Of a stretch of DNA of 49,890 nucleotides, positions 7,529 to 42,611 are shown one piece after another. Made by a program: the position numbers and the translations under genes. Origin of the DNA: Chitinophaga pinensis (GTDB taxonomy: Bacteria > Bacteroidota > Bacteroidia > NS11-12g > UBA955); assembly GCA_945877575.1 (NCBI GenBank), contig CAMDUE010000006.1:96767-146656 (forward strand). The letters run 5' to 3'. The notes beneath the pieces are model-generated. The model ran no database searches. It was given only the letters and a program-made list of their open reading frames with translations, and was not told the DNA's origin. Positions within the stretch are counted from its first letter, which is position 1. Every line of letters starts with the position of its first letter.

Positions 7529-8170
7529 TTAGTTGAAAAACGGATTGGTATTTATTTCTTTCTGAACTTGAGTGGATGGACCATGTCCACAAAAAAGCTG
7601 CATATCTGATGGAAGGGTAAAGATTTCAGATCTAATTTTCTCTAGGAGCAAATCGTGATTTCCGCCGGGAAGATCGGTTCTTCCTATAGAACCTTGAAAA
7701 ACGCAATCGCCTACCACCGCAAAATTTTCATCTTCCTGAATGTAAATTACATGTCCAGGTGAATGACCGGGAACAAATCTAACATCCAATTTCAAGGTTC
7801 CCACGATGATGCTATCGCCGTGTTGAACAAATTGATCTGGAAGGGGAGAAGGGGTGTAATCAAGGTTCCAAACGGCTGCCATTGCGTCTGACCGTTGAAT
7901 CATTTTGACATCGTCTTGGTGCAGATAGTATGGAACTTCCGGAAACTCTTGTTTAACGTACCAATTGCCAAAAATATGATCAATGTGGGCGTGGGTTCCC
8001 AATAAATGGGTCAAGGTAAGTTGATTTTGGATTAAAAAATCTTTGACGGTGTTGCATTCCTCACGATTATACATTCCTGCGTCTATCAGCGCTGCATGGC
8101 GGGTATTTTCATCCCAAATAATGTAGGTGTTTTCTGATAGCGGATTAAAAGTGAATGACTGAATGGGCAT
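7529..8170 (-). CDS. MBL-fold metallo-hydrolase, glyoxalase II-like
   Basis: 213 residues from the ATG at 8168-8170. The zinc motif THAHIDH (HxHxDH) is near residue 78, the second His in VPGHSPGH, the bridging Asp in AVVGDCVF, and the last His in LFCGHGP, the full ligand set of the family. GSIGRTDLPGG is typical of the glyoxalase II-like hydrolases of unknown substrate. A longer upstream start would prefix a hydrophobic Cys-rich stretch that overlaps the promoter, so it is rejected. TATCTTTG lies four bases before the chosen ATG. Confidence 0.88.
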   Translation of the reverse strand: MPIQSFTFNPLSENTYIIWDENTRHAALIDAGMYNREECNTVKDFLIQNQLTLTHLLGTHAHIDHIFGNWYVKQEFPEVPYYLHQDDVKMIQRSDAMAAVWNLDYTPSPLPDQFVQHGDSIIVGTLKLDVRFVPGHSPGHVIYIQEDENFAVVGDCVFQGSIGRTDLPGGNHDLLLEKIRSEIFTLPSDMQLFCGHGPSTQVQKEINTNPFFN

Positions 8171-11553: not shown

Positions 11554-11672
11554 GGGAGTCGGGGGTCGGGAGTCGGGAGACGGGAGTCGGGGGACGGGGG
11601 ACGGGAGACGGGGGACGGGGGACGGGTTTCGGGTTTCGGGGGACAGGTTTCGGGGGGCGGGAGTTGGGGAGG
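11554..11672. repeat. Degenerate heptad tandem array 1 (17 units)
   Basis: Seventeen consecutive 7-bp units without phase slip: mostly GGGAGTC, GGGGGAC, GGGAGAC, with GGGTTTC near the end. GGG recurs every 7 bp in thirteen units in a row (11554 to 11638). The array lies 67 bases upstream of the typA start and next to gene fragments, and on the minus strand it stays open as a spurious proline/serine-rich frame. Confidence 0.9.
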
Positions 11673-11689: not shown

Positions 11690-11862
11690 ATTATTGAGTA
11701 TGCATGCGATGAAATAATTTCGATTGATGGAAATTTAAAATTGCCCGATTCTGTCATTCCTGAGAAAATTCGGGAATATGTAAAATCAAACTATCCAGCC
11801 TATTTCTATACAGAGAGGGGAGAATTCACATCAATTTCGCACGATGTTCTTAAAACTTGTCG
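11690..11862 (+). pseudogene. Gene fragment, possibly PepSY-like
   Basis: An open stretch without a proper start, reading about YACDEIISIDGNLKLP then SVIPEKIREYVKSNYPA. The pattern 'DGN-x-LP-x2-V-x5-I-x2-Y-x3-NYP' resembles the PepSY-like/beta-lactamase-inhibitor-like repeats of secreted Bacteroidota proteins. It has no signal sequence and stops being plausible where the hsdM fragment begins on the other strand (about 11863). I take it as the broken remains of a gene; the family call is weak. Confidence 0.35.
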
Positions 11863-11953
11863 CTGGCTCAACACTGCCTCTAAATTTATTTGCAGCTTCC
11901 CACAGGGTAACTTCAATTGCTTTTTCTTTTACTTCTTTAGTTGACTTAGCCAT
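11831..11953 (-). pseudogene. hsdM: 5' stub of type I restriction-modification methyltransferase hsdM
   Basis: From ATG at 11951-11953 the minus strand encodes a 40-codon frame. Its first 31 codons read as the N-terminus of HsdM: a basic lead, then VTLWEAANKFRGSVEPA. In intact HsdM this continues with (E)YKHVVLGLIFLKY; here it changes abruptly after VEPA (near 11862) and stops at TGA 11831-11833. So roughly 90 bases of hsdM remain and the rest of the R-M locus is absent downstream. The stub starts five bases after the dinD stop, the usual dinD-hsdM order. Confidence 0.75.
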
Positions 11954-11958
11954 AAATC

Positions 11959-12801
11959 CTATTTCTTTCCATTAAGTTTTTTCTTTTCAATTTCTTTATC
12001 AGCAGATTTAACTCTGCGCTCAAGTTTTTTGATGTCTTCTTCAGCGGGTAGCTGTTCTGGTTTTATACCACTTTTACCAAGAAGTTCACGTACATCTCCG
12101 TTGTTCTTGATATGCTCATCCGTAATGCTCGCCTCACCTTTCAGGTCATGTTGCTTTACATTGAAGTTGGTGATTTCGGTGGCCAATTGTTTTGCAGTAA
12201 TTGTAATGGTAGGGAGGAAATCAGCTAGGGGTCTGTTTTCCGGAATGCCTAACTTCTTCTTCATGGTGCTTGTGGTCAATCCGCCAAACAATGCCCAATC
12301 TCCTTTGCTACGAATGTTTGCAAAACCTTTATTGTCTACACCCCTTTCATATATATTCTTAGAAAGTTCAGTTTCAGTCGCTGCCAATTTCTCACGAGCT
12401 TGCAAGCGCTCATTCAAGCGAATACGCTCTTCCAGCAACTCTTGCTTTCTTGTTTGAATGGCAAAATAACTTTGTGCAAAGGCTATTTGTTCTTTCTTAG
12501 AATCCCCGTTCTGCGCAATGAGATAGCAAGCATAGCGAGTAAGCATAATATCATCCTGTTTTCGCTCAGCCCCGGATCCGATTTTGACCATTTTGGTGAC
12601 GTCAACGAAATGGTCTAAAACCGCTTCCCCTGTGGTTTTGCAACTTTCTTTTGCCTTATCTACAGCATTTACGAAGTTACGCCAGTCTGAGTAACCAAGT
12701 AGCTCCTGAAGCTCCCTTGCGAGCCAATATTCAACACCTTCTTGCTCGTATGCTGATTCTTCAAATGATTTATTCAGTTTTATAATTGTTTCCTTTTCCA
12801 T
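11959..12801 (-). CDS. dinD: DNA damage-inducible protein D-like (DinD/Bro-N)
   Basis: 280 residues. The N-terminus (EGVEYWLARELQELLGYSDWRNF) is a Bro-N-like domain, followed by VTKMVKIGSGAERKQDD and LTRYACYLIAQNGDSKK. The family's C-terminal half contains GRSKGDWALFGG-like IRSKGDWALFGGLTTSTMKK and NNGDVRELL, and the tail is Lys-rich. DinD of Escherichia coli is LexA-controlled and acts on RecA filaments. Homologues outside enterobacteria are common inside type I R-M loci, exactly the context seen here with the hsdM stub. The frame is intact. No host-type TAnnTTTG element precedes it, in line with acquisition by transfer. Confidence 0.85.
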   Translation of the reverse strand: MEKETIIKLNKSFEESAYEQEGVEYWLARELQELLGYSDWRNFVNAVDKAKESCKTTGEAVLDHFVDVTKMVKIGSGAERKQDDIMLTRYACYLIAQNGDSKKEQIAFAQSYFAIQTRKQELLEERIRLNERLQAREKLAATETELSKNIYERGVDNKGFANIRSKGDWALFGGLTTSTMKKKLGIPENRPLADFLPTITITAKQLATEITNFNVKQHDLKGEASITDEHIKNNGDVRELLGKSGIKPEQLPAEEDIKKLERRVKSADKEIEKKKLNGKK

Positions 12802-13647: not shown

Positions 13648-13998
13648 TTAAATATCCAAAACAACTAACAGATTTCTTTGAACTTTATCTGATAGCGCTG
13701 TTGGTAGTTGGCCTATTTTTTTTATCAGTCGTCTGTTGTCGATGGCTCGAATCTGGTCAATCATTACATCACAATCCTCTCGAACATTGGCCATTCCCTT
13801 TTTCAAGTGTACCCGCAATAATTGACTTTTGGCTGATACGTTTGTGGTTATTGGACAAATTAGGGTGGAAGGATGAATTTCATTTAGAAGATCGGATTGC
13901 ACAACCAGTACCGGTCTTGTTTTTCCGGTTTCGGTTCCATGTCTCGGATCTAAGTTGGCTAACCAAACATCAAATTTTTGAATTTCCAAGCTCTTCAT
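13648..13998 (-). CDS. MazF/PemK-family endoribonuclease toxin
   Basis: 116 residues from ATG at 13996-13998. FDVWLANLDPRHGTETGKTRPVLVVQ is the PemK/MazF opening: the strand W-x-A-x-L-D, then GxExxKxRPxLVVQ with the conserved Arg-Pro. ICPITTNV is the next core strand, and IDQIRAIDNRRL is the final conserved segment. These toxins cleave mRNA. The start overlaps the antitoxin gene by 29 bases. All the usual core residues are visible, so it is probably active. Confidence 0.88.
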   Translation of the reverse strand: MKSLEIQKFDVWLANLDPRHGTETGKTRPVLVVQSDLLNEIHPSTLICPITTNVSAKSQLLRVHLKKGMANVREDCDVMIDQIRAIDNRRLIKKIGQLPTALSDKVQRNLLVVLDI

Positions 13999-14314: not shown

Positions 14315-15895
14315 ATGTTCGAATCTGAGATTTCCAAACGCAAAACCTTCGCTATTATTTCGCATCCCGATGCCGGTAAAACTACCCTGACAGAGAAATT
14401 TCTGCTTTTTGGTGGACAAATTCAAACCGCAGGGGCTGTTAAGTCCAACAAAATCACAAAAACCGCCGCCTCAGATTTCATGGAAATTGAAAAACAAAGG
14501 GGTATTTCTGTGGCTACATCGGTGATGACTTTCCCCTACAAAGGAAAGTGGGTCAATATTTTGGATACTCCCGGGCACAAAGATTTTGCTGAAGATACTT
14601 ACCGAACTTTGACCGCAGTTGACTCCGTTATCTTGGTGGTAGATTGCGTGAAAGGGGTGGAAGAGCAGACCAAACGACTCATGGAAGTTTGCAGAATGCG
14701 CAAAACTCCTGTGATTGTGTTTATCAATAAAATGGATCGCGACGGTAAAGATCCCTTTGATTTACTCGATGAGCTCGAAGAAAATTTAGACATTCAAGTG
14801 CATCCTTTGAGCTGGCCCATCAACGGCGGACGCGATTTTAAAGGTGTTTATTTGCTTCCCTCGAAATCTTTGAACCTCTTCGAAAGCTCCAAAACCAAAC
14901 TCTCTGATGATGTAATATCAGTGCAAGGCGTTGATGATGAAAGACTTCCACAGTTGGTTGGGGATAAAAATGCTGCAAAACTCCGCGAAGACGTGGAACT
15001 CATTGAAGGTGTTTACGGAGACATCGATATCAATAATTATTTGAAAGCCGACGTGGCACCCGTTTTCTTCGGTTCGGCATTGAACAACTTCGGAATTCAG
15101 GAGCTCCTAGATACCTTCGTGGATATCGCTCCGAATCCGCTCGCACGTCCCACAACCGTAAGGGATGTGGAGCCCACCGAAGCTAAATTTTCGGGATTTA
15201 TTTTCAAGATACACGCCAATTTAGACCCTCGCCACCGCGATAGAATTGCCTTCTTGCGTGTGTGCAGCGGCAAATTTGAACGCAATAAAGCTTACAAGCA
15301 TACCCGACTTGAAAAACAGGTCAAATTTGCGGCGCCATACACCTTTTTAGCTGATTCTAAGGAAGTGATGGATGCTGCTTTTCCGGGGGATGTTGTGGGC
15401 TTATACGATACCGGAAACTTCAAAATTGGCGATACACTGACCGAAGGTGAGGTATTCACTTTCAAAGGAATCCCGTCGTTTTCGCCCGAAATATTCAAAG
15501 AATTAATCAATCTTGACCCAATGAAAAGCAAGCAGTTGGAAAAAGGCATCCAACAGCTCACCGACGAAGGATTGGCCAACTTGTTCATCCAAGAACCCGG
15601 AAGCCGAAAATTTGTTGGTACCGTGGGTGAACTGCAGTTTGAAGTACTGCAATACCGCCTAGAACACGAGTACGGCGCGAAATGTCGCTTCGAGGCCCGC
15701 GGAATCCACAAAGCCTGCTGGATGACCGGTCCTGAAGCCGATCTGAAAGATTTCATGAAATACCGCGGTTCAAACATTGCCTACGACAAATCGGGCAATC
15801 CCGTTTTCCTCGCCGAAACCGCTTACATATTGCGCATGGCCATGGAAAAATACCCAGACATTCAATTCCACACAACAACGGAGTTGATATCCTAA
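14315..15895 (+). CDS. prfC: Peptide chain release factor 3
   Basis: 526 residues, normal for RF3. The GTPase P loop [10 protein letters not shown] is at about residues 16-25, [10 protein letters not shown] is switch I, DTPGHKDF is G3 and NKMDRDG is G4. The RF3-specific C-terminal domain includes [20 protein letters not shown] and [16 protein letters not shown]3 uses GTP to recycle RF1/RF2 from the ribosome after peptide release. The stop codon at 15893-15895 is followed after two bases by heptad array 2. Confidence 0.96.
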
Positions 15896-15897
15896 GT

Positions 15898-16051
15898 AGT
15901 CCATAGTCCGTGGTCCATAGTCCGTAGTCTGAAGCCTGTGGTCCATAGTCGGAAGTCCATGGTCTGTAGTCCGTGGTCTGTAGTCCGTAGTCCATAGTCT
16001 GTGGTCGCCGACACCTGAAACCCGTTACCCGGTACCTGAGACCCGGTACTA
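15898..16051. repeat. Degenerate heptad tandem array 2 (22 units)
   Basis: Twenty-two 7-bp units with no phase slip. The first fifteen are AGTCCRT/GGTCYRT-type. The last part shifts to ACCC-containing units: GAAACCC, GTTACCC, GGTACCT, GAGACCC, GGTACTA. The array occupies essentially the entire gap between prfC and the convergent DUF3078 gene. Its last unit, GGTACTA, contains that gene's stop codon (TAG on the minus strand, 16049-16051). Confidence 0.93.
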
Positions 16052-18311: not shown

Positions 18312-18962
18312 GTGATATCATGCATTGAACTTCGCAAACAATACGGCCAACTAGAGGTCCTAAAAGGGGTGTCTCTCGATGTCCATGAGCGCGAAATTAT
18401 CAGCATCACCGGCGAAAGCGGCGCAGGAAAAAGTACCTTATTACATTTAATAGGCACCCTAGATCGTCCAACTTCAGGTCAGGTGTTGTTTCGTGGGGAT
18501 GATATTTCGAAATTAACCGGCAAGAAATTATCGGCTTTCAGAAACCAGAATTTGGGATTTATCTTCCAATTTCACCAGCTCGTTCCAGAATTAACGGCCA
18601 TAGAAAATGCCTTTTTACCGCGTTTAATTTCTGGGGATAGCCGTTCGGCTGCAGAAAAATCAGCCAAAGAAATGCTAGACTACTTGGGCCTGACAGACCG
18701 CATGAATCACCGTCCAAGCGAATTATCGGGCGGCGAGCAGCAACGAGTATCTATTGCAAGAGCTCTGAGTATGCGTCCATCGTTAATCTTAGCCGATGAA
18801 CCCACCGGAAATTTAGATACAAAAAACGCCAAGCTGATTCACGAGCTCTTCTTCAAGATGCGCGATGACTTCAACTTGACGTTCATTATAGTGACCCACA
18901 ATCAGGAACTAGCCAAACTCTCTGACCGACAGGTAGTGATTGTGGATGGGGTTTTAGACTAG
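18312..18962 (+). CDS. ABC transporter ATPase, LolD-like
   Basis: 216 residues from a GTG start. Walker A GESGAGKST is at residues 34-42, the Q loop in GFIFQFHQLVPELTA, the signature LSGGEQQRVSIARAL, and Walker B LILADEPTGNLD with the H loop in VTHN. Length and the NLGFIFQFHQLVPELTA stretch match LolD, the ATPase of the lipoprotein-releasing LolCDE complex; relation to MacB/FtsE-type ATPases cannot be excluded and no permease is adjacent. The GTG is preferred because LolD homologues begin two to three residues before IELRKQYG-like motifs. The last codons GAC TAG already belong to heptad array 3. Confidence 0.85.
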   Translation: MISCIELRKQYGQLEVLKGVSLDVHEREIISITGESGAGKSTLLHLIGTLDRPTSGQVLFRGDDISKLTGKKLSAFRNQNLGFIFQFHQLVPELTAIENAFLPRLISGDSRSAAEKSAKEMLDYLGLTDRMNHRPSELSGGEQQRVSIARALSMRPSLILADEPTGNLDTKNAKLIHELFFKMRDDFNLTFIIVTHNQELAKLSDRQVVIVDGVLD

Positions 18963-19075
18963 AGACTAGAGACTAGGGACTAGGGACTAGGGACTAGGGA
19001 CTAGGGACTAGAGACTAGGGACTAGAGACTAGAGACTGGTACTTGGTACCAGGTACCAGGTACCAGGTACTAAGA
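18957..19075. repeat. Degenerate heptad tandem array 3 (17 units)
   Basis: Seventeen in-phase 7-bp units: twelve-fold block of GACTAGG/GACTAGA/GACTGGT, then units of the AGGTACC type (ACTTGGT, ACCAGGT three times, ACTAAGA). It begins in the last sense codon of the ABC ATPase, supplies that gene's TAG, and ends directly against the stop codon (19076-19078) of the convergent gene. Confidence 0.93.
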
Positions 19076-20313: not shown

Positions 20314-21324
20314 TTGAAAAATTCATCACCCAATAGACCCGCCCAACTCGCTTTTGTGGAAGTTCTCAAGAGGGCTGCCCCTATGAACATTAACCTCGCT
20401 GAAGAAATAGCTGCTCTGTTTGAAATTAGCTTGGATTCGGTGTACAGAAGGATGAGAGGCGAAACCGATTTCTCTCTTGAGGAAGTGGTTGCACTCTGCG
20501 ACAATTTTAACATCCCCCTAGAAGATGCATTGAGCCCCAAAAGTAAGATGGTCAGTTTTAGAGCCAATGACCTTTCAAATGAGTCACAATCATTTGCTGC
20601 TTATTTAAAGGTGTTGTATTCTGATTTGCGTTGGGTGAGACAATGGGATAATGCCGAAATCATTTATGCAGCAGAAGACCTTCCTGTGTTTTACCATTTT
20701 TTCTTTCCGCGGTTGGCAAGATTTAAAATGGTTTATTGGAACAAGTCCATACTTGGCTCGGTTGATTTGAAGCAGTCTTTCGTTGAGGATATTCTCATCC
20801 CCGACTCATGGCGGGAAGAAGTCCCTAAAATTCAACAAACCTTTTTGGAAATGCCATCTACTGAAGTTTGGCATGAAGATACTTTGAAAAGTACGTTTAG
20901 ACAGCTTGAATATTATGCATCGGCGGGCTATTTTAAAGATATTAACGTAGCACTTGAAGTCGTTGACGAAATTGAAGCCTTAGTTTTGATGTTGAAATCG
21001 CAAGCAGTTCAAGGGAAAAAGTACAATCCTATAAAAAAGGAATTCACAGAAACCCCTTATGAGTTGTATATCAGCGATGTAATGATTGGGACGAACTGCG
21101 TATTTTTAAGGTCTTCCGGACAGAATGCGTCTTACTTGGGGTATAACACGTTTAATTTCATTCAAACCAAGAACGAAGCGTTTAACCGGCAGGCAATTGG
21201 CTGGTTGGAAAACTTGATGTCGAAAAGCGAAAAGGTATCAGGTGTTTCAGAAAAGAATAGAAATCGTTATTTTGCTCAAGTTGCACAAGAAATTGAGCAA
21301 TTGCGCAAACGAATTTCACCATGA
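20314..21324 (+). CDS. HTH transcriptional regulator (BetR/XRE-like)
   Basis: 336 residues from a TTG start; the frame is closed by TAG nine bases upstream, so only ATT, TTG or an internal ATG (residue 24) are possible. Residues 25-70 form a helix-turn-helix: LAEEIAALFEISLDSVYRRMRGETDFSLEEVVALCDNF read in parts, the BetR-like pattern of Bacteroidota regulators. The remaining 260 residues are mostly helical, with tandem Trp/Tyr-rich segments, and I do not recognise a named domain. It overlaps recQ by four bases (ATGA), so the pair is coupled. Target genes unknown. Confidence 0.65.
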   Translation: MKNSSPNRPAQLAFVEVLKRAAPMNINLAEEIAALFEISLDSVYRRMRGETDFSLEEVVALCDNFNIPLEDALSPKSKMVSFRANDLSNESQSFAAYLKVLYSDLRWVRQWDNAEIIYAAEDLPVFYHFFFPRLARFKMVYWNKSILGSVDLKQSFVEDILIPDSWREEVPKIQQTFLEMPSTEVWHEDTLKSTFRQLEYYASAGYFKDINVALEVVDEIEALVLMLKSQAVQGKKYNPIKKEFTETPYELYISDVMIGTNCVFLRSSGQNASYLGYNTFNFIQTKNEAFNRQAIGWLENLMSKSEKVSGVSEKNRNRYFAQVAQEIEQLRKRISP

Positions 21325-23216
21325 GTGACAGCACTACACCCGAAGAAATATTAAAAAAACATTGGGGTTTCGATCGTTTTCGAGATGGTCAACTAAATAT
21401 CATTCAATCAGTTATTTCTGGAAATGATACACTTGCCTTGTTGCCAACAGGCGGTGGAAAGAGCATCTGTTTTCAAGTGCCTGGACTTCTTTTAGGGGGA
21501 CTTACACTCGTGGTATCGCCCTTGATTGCGTTGATGAAAGATCAAGTTGACGGACTAAAACAACGGAATATTTCGGCCAATTTCATTCACAGCGCCCTAA
21601 CTTGGAAAGAAATTAAAGGCATTATGGAAAATGCCCTTAAAGGACATTACTCCTTTTTATATGTATCGCCTGAAAGACTGCTTTCTCAAAATTTTACGGA
21701 ATATCTGCCCAATCTGAATATAAAATTATTGGTGGTAGATGAGGCTCATTGCATTAGTTCTTGGGGAAGTGATTTCAGGCCTTCGTTCAAAGAAATTTAC
21801 AAAGTCAGAGAATTTTTATCTGCCAAAACACCCGTTGCCGCCTTTACTGCGTCTGCGCCCGATTGGATTCAAGAGGATATTATTTCGGGATTGCAATTAA
21901 AGAATCATAAAAAATTTCAAGGTGAATTTGGACGAAATAACTTGGTTTTTCAAGCAATTTATGCAGAAAATAAACGCGATTTATTGCTGCATGCATTGAA
22001 ACATACCACTGGGTGTTCTATCGTGTTTGGAAGCACGCGAAAAGAAGTTCAGGATTGTGCTCAATGGCTAGCCGAAGAAGGCATTTCATCGCATTTTTAT
22101 CACGGCGGACTTCCAAGCGAGGAACGATCTAAAAAGCAAACCGAATGGATGCAGAACAAAGTAAGGGTGATGGTGTGTACCAATGCTTTTGGCATGGGCG
22201 TTGACAAACCCGATGTTCGGTATGTTTTCCATTTGTCACCAAGCGCTACACCCGAAGACTATTATCAAGAAGCAGGAAGAGCAGGGAGAGATGGCAATAA
22301 GAGCTTTTGCATTTTGTTTTACAACTCGTCTGATTGGTTGAAATCAATAGAGTTTATTGCGCAGCAACATCCCCCGATAGAAACCTTGAAACAATGTTAC
22401 CATGCGGTCATGAATTCTTTGGGAATTGCACCAGGCAACGGACAAGACAGCGTGAATGCAATAGATTGGACATTGATTGCTGAAAAGTACAAGATTTCGG
22501 TATCGCAAATGTTCTTTTCTATCAAAATCATTGAGAAATTGAAGCTCTGGCACCTCAGTGAGGGATTTAATAGTCCCTCGAAAATCAAGATGCAAATGGA
22601 TTACTCAGAGGTTTATGACTTTAAAATCAGGTACGAAAAGTTCGATTCTTTGTTGGATGTTTTGATGCGCGGATTTGGGGGGATTTTTGAGCACTTCACC
22701 ACCGTAATTGAACCTCAATTGGCTCGAAAAGCCTTATTGACAGAAGATGAATTGACTAAACAACTGGGTGTGCTCCAAAAGGCGGGAGTTATAGATTACA
22801 TTCCTCGGAGCAATTTGCCCATGTTGACTTTGTTGGAACCTCGATCAATGTATCCAAGCTTCGATATGAAAATCGTGGAAGCACTGAAGAAAAGGAGGCT
22901 AGAGGCATTGTCAAAAATGCAAGAATATTCACAGAATAAGGCATGTAGATCCAATTTTTGGGTGAATTATTTCACTGGAGAACCTTCTGGAAATTGCTTT
23001 ACTTGCGATAATTGCAAAAAGAAGTTTGCTAAACCTCAACCCAGTAGAATTCAAAAAGAAATTCTCGAAAGATTGTCAAAGCCATCAGATTTTTTTGAGT
23101 TTACACAGAACTTTCCTCTGGAATTTAGAGACAACTTTTTGGATCAGTTGAATAAACTAATGGATGAAGGTAAAATTCAGAAATCGGCCGATAATCAATT
23201 AAGTTTGCAGGCTTGA
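21321..23216 (+). CDS. recQ: ATP-dependent DNA helicase RecQ
   Basis: 631 residues. Walker A LPTGGGKS is at residues 41-48, DEAH at residues 140-143, and motif VI QEAGRAGRDG marks superfamily 2. The RecQ C-terminal zinc region is present as CRSNFWVNYFTGE followed by CFTCDNC. There is no obvious HRDC domain after it; short RecQ proteins of this kind are common in Bacteroidota. RecQ unwinds DNA 3' to 5' in recombination and repair and in other organisms can unwind G-quadruplexes, of interest given the GGG arrays here. The start overlaps the HTH gene; the stop overlaps the TTG of the next gene. Confidence 0.93.
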   Translation: MSDSTTPEEILKKHWGFDRFRDGQLNIIQSVISGNDTLALLPTGGGKSICFQVPGLLLGGLTLVVSPLIALMKDQVDGLKQRNISANFIHSALTWKEIKGIMENALKGHYSFLYVSPERLLSQNFTEYLPNLNIKLLVVDEAHCISSWGSDFRPSFKEIYKVREFLSAKTPVAAFTASAPDWIQEDIISGLQLKNHKKFQGEFGRNNLVFQAIYAENKRDLLLHALKHTTGCSIVFGSTRKEVQDCAQWLAEEGISSHFYHGGLPSEERSKKQTEWMQNKVRVMVCTNAFGMGVDKPDVRYVFHLSPSATPEDYYQEAGRAGRDGNKSFCILFYNSSDWLKSIEFIAQQHPPIETLKQCYHAVMNSLGIAPGNGQDSVNAIDWTLIAEKYKISVSQMFFSIKIIEKLKLWHLSEGFNSPSKIKMQMDYSEVYDFKIRYEKFDSLLDVLMRGFGGIFEHFTTVIEPQLARKALLTEDELTKQLGVLQKAGVIDYIPRSNLPMLTLLEPRSMYPSFDMKIVEALKKRRLEALSKMQEYSQNKACRSNFWVNYFTGEPSGNCFTCDNCKKKFAKPQPSRIQKEILERLSKPSDFFEFTQNFPLEFRDNFLDQLNKLMDEGKIQKSADNQLSLQA

Positions 23217-40200: not shown

Positions 40201-41325
40201 ATGCAAAGCGAAGTTTTGGATAATGTTGCCGTTGAGACGGATTTTCTTCCCTTAAACGGAACCGATCACATTGAATTTTTCGTAGGAAACGCCAAACAAA
40301 GCGCCTATTATTATCAGGCTGCTTGGGGATATAAATTGGTTGCTTACGCGGGGCCTGAAACGGGAGTGCGCGATAGAGCCAGTTATGTTTTAGAGCAAGA
40401 GAAAATTCGCTTGGTTTTAACTACAGCCATTGATCCAAACTCTGAAATCGCTCAACATCACCTTACCCACGGTGACGGTGTTAAGTTTTTGAGCATTTGG
40501 GTTGATGACGCCACCAAAAGTTTCGAAGAAACAGTTAAACGCGGTGCAAAGCCATACATGGAGCCCACTCGTTTTGAAGATGAGAATGGCTATGTGATTA
40601 TTTCTGGTATCCATACTTACGGTGAAACCGTACATAAGTTTGTTGAGCGTAAAAACTACAACGGCCCATTCTTGCCTGGTTATAAAAAGCCTGCTTTTGC
40701 CATGAATGTTAAACCCGTTGGACTTAGATACGTAGACCATTGCGTTGGAAATGTCGAATTAGGCAAGATGAATGAATGGGTTCGTTTTTACGAGGATGTA
40801 ATGGGCTTCAAATTGTTATTGACTTTTGATGACAAAGACATCAGCACCGAATACAGCGCTCTGATGAGTAAGGTGGTGTCTAACGGAAACGGATACATCA
40901 AATTCCCCATCAACGAGCCTGCTGAAGGAAAAAAGAAATCTCAAATAGAAGAGTATATCGAGTTCTATAAAGGTGCTGGTGTTCAACACATTGCCATCGA
41001 AGTACACAACATCATTGAAACGGTAGGAGAACTTCGCAATCGCGGAATTGAATTCCTATACGTTCCTGAAACCTACTATGATGACGTACTTGACCGAGTA
41101 GGAGAGATTGAAGAAAATCTTGAAGATCTAAAGAGTCAAAACATTCTTGTAGACCGAGACGAATCTGGATATCTACTACAAATCTTCACCAAACCTGTAG
41201 AAGATCGCCCCACCGTATTTTTTGAAATCATTCAAAGAAAGGGTGCAAAATCATTCGGAAAAGGCAATTTCAAAGCCCTTTTCGAAAGCATTGAACGCGA
41301 ACAGGCGGTAAGAGGGAATCTGTAG
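40201..41325 (+). CDS. hppD: 4-hydroxyphenylpyruvate dioxygenase
   Basis: 374 residues. The iron ligands are His180 (YVDHCVGNV), His263 (GVQHIAIEV) and Glu342 (FFEIIQRKG), all present. GTNxF-like loops are replaced by FGKGNFKALFESIEREQ at the C-terminus, the gating helix. The enzyme converts 4-hydroxyphenylpyruvate to homogentisate in tyrosine breakdown. Homogentisate dioxygenase is not adjacent. The stop at 41323-41325 is followed after three bases by heptad array 4. Confidence 0.95.
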   Translation: MQSEVLDNVAVETDFLPLNGTDHIEFFVGNAKQSAYYYQAAWGYKLVAYAGPETGVRDRASYVLEQEKIRLVLTTAIDPNSEIAQHHLTHGDGVKFLSIWVDDATKSFEETVKRGAKPYMEPTRFEDENGYVIISGIHTYGETVHKFVERKNYNGPFLPGYKKPAFAMNVKPVGLRYVDHCVGNVELGKMNEWVRFYEDVMGFKLLLTFDDKDISTEYSALMSKVVSNGNGYIKFPINEPAEGKKKSQIEEYIEFYKGAGVQHIAIEVHNIIETVGELRNRGIEFLYVPETYYDDVLDRVGEIEENLEDLKSQNILVDRDESGYLLQIFTKPVEDRPTVFFEIIQRKGAKSFGKGNFKALFESIEREQAVRGNL

Positions 41326-41328
41326 ATT

Positions 41329-41524
41329 GGTACTAGGTACTAGGTACCGGGTTACGGGTAGCGGGCTTCGGGTATCGGGTTTCGGGTTACGGGTAGCGGG
41401 TACCGGGTTACGGGTAGCGGGCTTCGGGTATCGGGTTTCGGGTTACGAGTAGCGGGTTTCGGGTAGCGGGCTTCAGACCACAGACCATGGGCCACGGACT
41501 ACAGACTACAGACTACAGACTATA
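41329..41524. repeat. Degenerate heptad tandem array 4 (28 units)
   Basis: Twenty-eight in-phase 7-bp units: GGTACTA, then GGTACCG/GGTTACG/GGTAGCG/GGCTTCG/GGTATCG/GGTTTCG, ending in GACCACA and GACTACA units. A higher-order unit of eight heptads (56 bp) is duplicated: 41343-41398 and 41399-41454 differ at one base. GGG occurs every 7 bp fourteen times in a row (41349 to 41442). The last unit GACTATA contains the stop codon of the convergent membrane protein gene. Confidence 0.95.
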
Positions 41525-42611
41525 TCAATATCGATTGTATAAATAGAATTCCTTGAGTAACTGAGAAGACAGCCATCACCGTCAAGGCTATCCAGCGTTG
41601 AAGGGGAGTTATGTGTCTGAATAGGTAAATCCAGGCTGGGAGAAGCACGCACACGTTCCGGTAAACGGCGGTGACACTGCTGCTACTGTAGGGGAGCCAC
41701 CAATAGAGAAGGGTGAAAATCATTAATAGGAGCCACAGCGGTTGTTGGGTGCGGATCTTGTAGAATTTAATGACGGCTAGAATTACAGCGATCCAAATGA
41801 AGTAGTTTTGGAGTTCTATTGACATTTTTAGGGTGCCCCATGCATCGATTAATTCCTTGAATTTCAAGTACATCATCTCGAATGGGAGCTTCACATGGTG
41901 TCCGTATTTGCCCTGTATTAGGAATAATGCGTTCCATTTTCCAGTGGCGAAATAATCGTATGTAAACCAAGTTATGATGCCGGCTAATGGAATTAATACG
42001 AGTTTAGAGGCATTGGTGAGGGTTAAATCTTTTTTGCGCCATTGATAAAATGCATAAACGCCCAAACAGGCGATGAGAATGAATCCGATAGAGTAGGAGA
42101 GTGCGGCAAAGTAACCCATGATGCCAGCCAGTAAGTATTTTTGACGTTCCAGAAAGTAAAACATCCCCAGAACGAAAAAAGCTAAAAGGGACATGGGGAA
42201 AATGGCGTGAAAATAGATATTTCCCGGTGCTAGTAATAAGAGTAAAGCGCCCGCAAAAGATTCATTTCTGACCCAATACAGGCTGCAAATCCAGAAGAAG
42301 GTACTGATGTAAATACCGGCATCGGCAAATGGAATTTGTTGGCCAGAAATTTCATGAAGCAGTCTAATGAGAGCAGGGTAAAGGGGTGCCCAGCCGGCGT
42401 TTCCGCAGTTCCCTGAGGGAATATCAGGGCAAGGGTAAAGGGTGTGCCCAACTTTAGCAATGCCAAGGTAAAGCCCGGAATCCCAACGGCTCCAACAGAT
42501 TTCGTTCCATCCTCCCCAACAATTTCCGGCTAAAGCTATGTAATGTCCAAATAAAAAATAGGAAACAATGAGCGCGAATGCGGCAATGATTTGTCTTTTG
42601 CTTAGTTCCAT
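41520..42611 (-). CDS. PIG-V-like mannosyltransferase (GT-C membrane protein)
   Basis: 363 residues with about eleven hydrophobic segments. The first extracytoplasmic loop carries SRWDSGLYLGIAKVG (Asp44), then GWAPLYPALIRLL, the pair of motifs seen in bacterial PIG-V-like GT-C transferases (R-W-D-x-x-W/L-Y and F-P-L-Y-P). These use polyprenyl-phosphate mannose to mannosylate a lipid or glycan outside the membrane. Acceptor unknown. The start overlaps the oligopeptidase 3' end by 10 bases, so the genes are coupled. The TAG stop lies in array 4. Confidence 0.75.
   Translation of the reverse strand: MELSKRQIIAAFALIVSYFLFGHYIALAGNCWGGWNEICWSRWDSGLYLGIAKVGHTLYPCPDIPSGNCGNAGWAPLYPALIRLLHEISGQQIPFADAGIYISTFFWICSLYWVRNESFAGALLLLLAPGNIYFHAIFPMSLLAFFVLGMFYFLERQKYLLAGIMGYFAALSYSIGFILIACLGVYAFYQWRKKDLTLTNASKLVLIPLAGIITWFTYDYFATGKWNALFLIQGKYGHHVKLPFEMMYLKFKELIDAWGTLKMSIELQNYFIWIAVILAVIKFYKIRTQQPLWLLLMIFTLLYWWLPYSSSSVTAVYRNVCVLLPAWIYLFRHITPLQRWIALTVMAVFSVTQGILFIQSILI

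Follow-up and report, generated by a model that had tools for sequence, protein, structure and literature searches.

Guanine runs recurring every 7 bp in a bacterial genome raise the question of whether such arrays are kept for the structures that guanine can form, or for something that the guanines merely accompany. In this study we focus on four arrays in a window of 49,890 nucleotides (the whole stretch of DNA analysed), which lies at C6:96767-146656 of a 2.5-Mb Bacteroidota genome, hereafter G000, where strict period-7 arrays are numerous. An over-representation of heptamer repeats in bacterial genomes is on record (cited in PMC4692102), and their function is not settled. An earlier note on the window read arrays 1, 3 and 4 as canonical G-quadruplex tracts at gene ends, and pointed to a RecQ helicase encoded in the same stretch. 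The analysis reported here shows that these tracts are one dialect of a dispersed, extragenic family of heptamer arrays.

Array 1 (11554-11669, plus strand) is composed of the period-7 words GGGAGTC, GGGGGAC and GGGTTTC, with 13 GGG in a row (11554-11640). It lies about 70 bp upstream of the start codon of typA, which is on the minus strand, and its G-rich strand is antisense to that gene. To its right, a Bro-N domain gene is found at 11959-12801 (minus strand), and synteny with the sister species described below is broken over 11700-12801, a possible insertion. Array 2 (15896-16043, plus strand), made of GTAGTCC, ATAGTCC and GTGGTCC and then of ACCC-type words, occupies the gap between the stop codons of the peptide chain release factor 3 gene on its left (RF3, 14315-15895, plus strand) and of a DUF3078 gene (minus strand). 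Array 3 (18956-19072, plus strand), with AGACTAG and GGACTAG words followed by GGTACCA, overlaps the stop codon of an ABC-transporter gene (plus strand) and reaches to within 5 bp of the stop codon of the opposite gene. Array 4 (41329-41522, plus strand) also occupies a gap between stop codons, those of an HPPD-like glyoxalase/dioxygenase gene on its left (40201-41325, plus strand), whose protein has its best named relatives in Bacteroidota, and of a gene at 41520-42611 (minus strand). Its words run from GGTACTA through GGGTTAC, GGGTAGC, GGGCTTC and GGGTATC to GACCACA and GACTACA, and it holds a 56-bp higher-order repeat; a plasmid origin of this array was rejected, as no match was found. Arrays 2 to 4 are flush with the stop codons of convergent genes, so that the placement at gene ends given by the earlier note stands for them but not for array 1.

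The G-tracts themselves were correctly described. GGG recurs at 7-bp steps 13, 5 and 14 times in arrays 1, 3 and 4, always on the plus strand, which was seen in none of 100 shuffles; the G3N4 core of array 4 spans 41349-41442 (plus strand). Overlapping matches to four consecutive G3N4 units, with 0 expected and none in 100 shuffles, number 10 in array 1, 2 in array 3 (18976-19006) and 11 in array 4, and by sequence these tracts qualify as potential three-quartet quadruplexes. Array 2 indeed has no full G3N4 set, though its period is 7. The arrays, however, extend past the G-tracts, as the limits of array 4 illustrate, and the non-GGG words AGACTAG, GGTACCA, GTAGTCC and GACTACA keep the 7-bp rhythm beyond them. 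Tandem Repeats Finder reports a period of 7 and, in the period-7 rows, 0% indels at 11554-11669, 15896-15999, 18956-19070 and 41348-41522.

We extended the analysis to stretches totalling about 1.0 Mb of G000 and 0.39 Mb of its sister species G011, in which genes were called by a simple open reading frame and codon-usage script. The first 20 G000 stretches were picked near known G3N4 matches, and array densities are taken from the remaining stretches only. In 450 kb of unselected G000 sequence, tandem repeats at lag 7 account for 1939 bp and those at any other lag between 2 and 11 for 0-77 bp; multiples of 7 follow lag 7, and no lag-7 arrays were found in locally shuffled sequence. The arrays are intergenic tandem repeats of a 7-bp unit, drawing on dozens of words per genome, and they are long, those listed mostly exceeding four units. 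Two G000 arrays lying 3 kb apart (L164 2067-2203 and 5149-5492) are near-copies across several different words, with 50 exact bases in common that reach outside the array, suggesting local copying or gene conversion. Block copying between loci is rare, blocks of at least 28 bp with at least three distinct units being shared by three array pairs in G000 and one in G011; most sharing is of single words. Moreover, some G000 contigs end in or near arrays (L142 10354-10679 at the end of C2, L168 1-170 at the start of C7 and L163 160-257 at the start of C5), which indicates that arrays probably break assemblies and are under-counted.

The arrays sit at the ends of genes. Their edges meet stop rather than start codons by 47 to 2 in G000 and by 19 to 5 in G011, and 15 of the 47 G000 arrays touch a stop codon on both sides, thereby closing the gap between convergent genes. 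Arrays are carried by 35 of the 648 junctions in the G000 sample (about 5%), distributed as 18 of 104 convergent, 13 of 439 codirectional and 4 of 105 divergent junctions (convergent versus divergent, p=0.0015). Furthermore, the words are oriented. Read in the sense direction from the stop codon they are G/T-rich and polar, AGTTGGT being found 119 times in sense and 0 in antisense and CTTTGGT 73 and 0 times; exceptions are the palindrome-like GGTACC words and ACTAGAG (30 sense, 5 antisense). G exceeds C inward at stop edges by 57 to 5, compared with 51 to 26 at other edges (p=0.0004). The skew flips toward the far side of the array, and either strand reads G-rich and then C-rich: the words are mostly RGT-N4 sense-ward from the stop codon and become the reverse-complement form at the far side. 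The RGT core, which was spotted after looking at the words, occurs in 88% and 95% of sense doublets; other families show it less strongly, the fraction being 0.38 in G108, a genome described below.

The sister species separates what is kept from what is replaced. G011, whose assembly is 74% complete, has 83% DNA identity with G000 over 83 kb aligned, and the two proteins searched are 96-99% identical in amino acids. Its period-7 arrays are abundant (39 segments in 354 kb) and are written in words such as GGTCTTT, the commonest, GGTGATC, GGCTGAC and CTCTAAA. All four window sites carry an array in G011, namely L211 16554-16712, in the place corresponding to array 1, L206 13620-13935 for array 2, L206 10461-10709 for array 3 and L205 8022-8228 for array 4. 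Of the arrays that could be mapped across all syntenic stretches compared, 9 of 10 in G000 and 9 of 12 in G011 have a partner array at the same junction, whereas no more than about 5% of junctions in the G000 sample carry an array at all. Yet the two species have just 1-3% of repeated words in common, and orthologous arrays align with a score of 14.6, against 14.7 for non-orthologous arrays across species and about 27 for arrays within one genome. The word sequence is replaced genome-wide in concert, and position and period are conserved. A non-heptamer centre, GAGACTTTGAGACTCAC..GCTTCGCTA, recurs in G011 at L205 ~8110-8170, L206 ~13700-13840 and L208 ~6100, and may be a small repeat dispersed within or close to arrays.

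The other relatives add further variants. At the array sites, other genus members have an empty site, a terminator or a third dialect, the latter represented by G002 with its GGTTCCT and GACCAGA words. In G108 (7.2 Mb, same class; L253-L261), we counted 570 matches to four G3N4 units, with GGGTTTC and GGGTTTT words and a weaker strand polarity at stop codons; it is a distant Bacteroidia genome, apparently with an independent G-rich dialect. G117, a soil Bacteroidetes, has arrays of period 8 with GTTG-N4 words and 75 genome-wide overlapping four-fold matches. Those of locus L065 (601-653, 1045-1094, 2373-2624 and 3797-3995) have a G/T-rich and a C/A-rich side, and three of the four lie at most 16 bp from a stop codon. 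The period-8 arrays weaken the idea of a universal 7-nt constraint across Bacteroidota, and the repeat period itself may be lineage-specific.

Where arrays stand, terminators are scarce. Scored by a simple hairpin-plus-T rule, a terminator is present at 3 of 42 convergent gene ends with an array versus 38 of 94 without (p=4e-5), and in 17 of 26 cases in other genus members. At the HPPD junction, a hairpin followed by a T-run is clear in several relatives, and its place is taken by an array in G000, G011 and G002. At RF3, relatives in which the convergent neighbour is retained show a very short gap and no terminator, so that terminator replacement is not general and arrays also occur where there was nothing to replace. 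Compared with dinucleotide shuffles, the arrays form more stable folds (mean z of -2.5 and -3.5); as the arms of one array pair no better than swapped arms (p=0.87), a hairpin with coevolving arms was rejected.

Several known systems resemble these arrays in part. Intrinsic terminators likewise lie behind stop codons, but the arrays stand where terminators are missing and have no compact GC hairpin followed by a T-run, and the low count of such hairpins at array-bearing ends speaks against identity with them. REP/BIME elements are extragenic, located 3' of genes in inverted arrangement, and rare between divergent genes. The arrays share all of these features; unlike REP/BIME, they are 7-bp direct repeats with no palindromic unit and no conserved sequence, and the non-specific pairing of their arms and the few shared blocks do not fit a conserved palindrome copied among loci. 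The GGGNATC and GGGGA(C/T)T heptamer repeats of Xanthomonas and Nostoc, whose function was left open with polymerase slippage cited (Rehm et al. 2015, PMC4692102), are the closest match: they too have a dispersed, intergenic 7-bp unit on the sense strand beside stop codons, convergent inverted pairs, few copies between divergent genes and largely the same junctions in two related species, and the array word GGGTATC fits GGGNATC. Those repeats have one G-rich word family per genome and peak at four units, whereas in G000 dozens of words make up long arrays, many of which lack G3 tracts, and the vocabulary of its sister species is entirely different and has no quadruplex potential. The TAACTGA repeats of Beggiatoaceae, Cyanobacteria and some Bacteroidetes, for which one cold-shock protein per heptamer was proposed (MacGregor 2015, PMC4679880), are also intergenic heptamer direct repeats, and Bacteroidetes intergenic regions with other heptamers, as well as relatives with shorter repeat-free gaps, are described in the same paper. 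They use a single fixed word, placed for the most part directly in front of start codons, in contrast to the many words found here at stops, and membership in that family was rejected. In the literature searched, outside which most subscription papers fell, species-specific dialects at conserved junctions are not described.

How, then, should the arrays be explained? The quadruplex reading holds that they are kept for DNA or RNA quadruplexes that would pause polymerases and be resolved by RecQ. G3N4 runs far above chance speak for it, as does the potassium-dependent quadruplex formation in vitro of the related repeats (GGGAATC)3GGG and GGGGA(C/T)T (PMC4692102). Random placement and orientation, which the earlier note had named as evidence against its own proposal, did not occur, the G3 motif beside stop codons being 13 times in sense and once in antisense. 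The motif is not a conserved feature, however: 31 of 50 sampled G000 arrays carry it, 19 cannot form a three-quartet structure, and neither can any of the 25 same-site G011 arrays. Genome-wide, overlapping matches to four G3N4 units number 432 in G000 versus 7 in G011 (0-7 across 13 genus members), whereas matches to (GGTN4)4GGT number 635 and 365, the 7-bp GGT rhythm being common to both. The RecQ gene is where it was said to be (21321-23216, plus strand), but its link to the arrays was rejected as uninformative, because an RQC domain is encoded in all eight good-quality genus genomes, most of them array-poor. Quadruplex potential is mostly a by-product of the words of G000, incidental where GGG words dominate, and a quadruplex function is unlikely. 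We consider equally unlikely an array of protein sites, in which each 7-nt unit would bind one single-strand RNA or DNA binding protein, for instance a cold-shock protein on the mRNA 3' end. The idea was raised by MacGregor for TAACTGA (PMC4679880), cold-shock domains occur in 13 of 14 genus genomes searched, and GTCTTTG/C, the heptamer consensus of Bacillus CspB (PMC7825780), is identical to the most frequent G011 word in its repeated form (GGTCTTT)n, which is a lead only; the G000 words GGTACCG and GACTAGA depart from this consensus, array-poor relatives have cold-shock proteins too, and a period-8 relative exists. Least probable is a mobile REP/BIME-like element inserted behind stop codons, which would account for the niche at 3' ends and convergent gaps, the two halves of inverted polarity, the empty sites in relatives and the dispersed short central sequences of G011, but not for sharing at the level of words, with so few copied blocks, nor for the lack of visible fixed ends.

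The simplest account is growth by 7-bp steps with word homogenisation, bounded by coding sequence, to which a gene-linked polarity has to be added. Arrays would grow and turn over by slippage or unequal exchange in steps of 7 bp and its multiples, their words would be homogenised within a genome, and they would replace the non-coding sequence between genes as far as the coding ends. They would then be retained at 3' ends as transcript-end zones or in place of them, a transcript through the array being G/U-rich and then C/A-rich in either direction. We tentatively favour this reading of rapidly turned-over 3'-end arrays, in which the transcript-end role is the most economical function that we infer. 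A purely neutral origin is nearly as likely: the arrays would be minisatellites driven by 7-nt slippage, unequal exchange and gene conversion, surviving only where they are harmless, behind stop codons. Purifying selection would explain the position bias, and the empty sites in relatives, the higher-order repeats (such as that of array 4), the fast sequence turnover and the heptamer slippage hypothesis cited in PMC4692102 all fit. Neutrality alone does not explain the near-total sense polarity at stop codons, a gene-linked trait that a purely neutral model does not readily produce, nor why two species whose words are unrelated have arrays at the same junctions; the terminator scarcity is unexplained as well, unless arrays simply overwrote terminators.

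A broader proposal, which we regard as rather doubtful, is that the arrays represent a class of bacterial 3'-end element in which period, polarity and a short core of RGT plus four free bases are conserved instead of sequence, with species dialects at conserved stop-codon junctions replacing terminators and being rewritten in concert between species. What G000 and G011 share is the 7-base rhythm and the position, not the quadruplex. The quadruplex hypothesis arose from genomes whose words happen to be G-rich, and in two sister species that use unrelated words at the same sites, quadruplex potential can be told apart from period, position and polarity. Thus, through the G000 and G011 pair, the function of heptamer arrays becomes a directly testable question.
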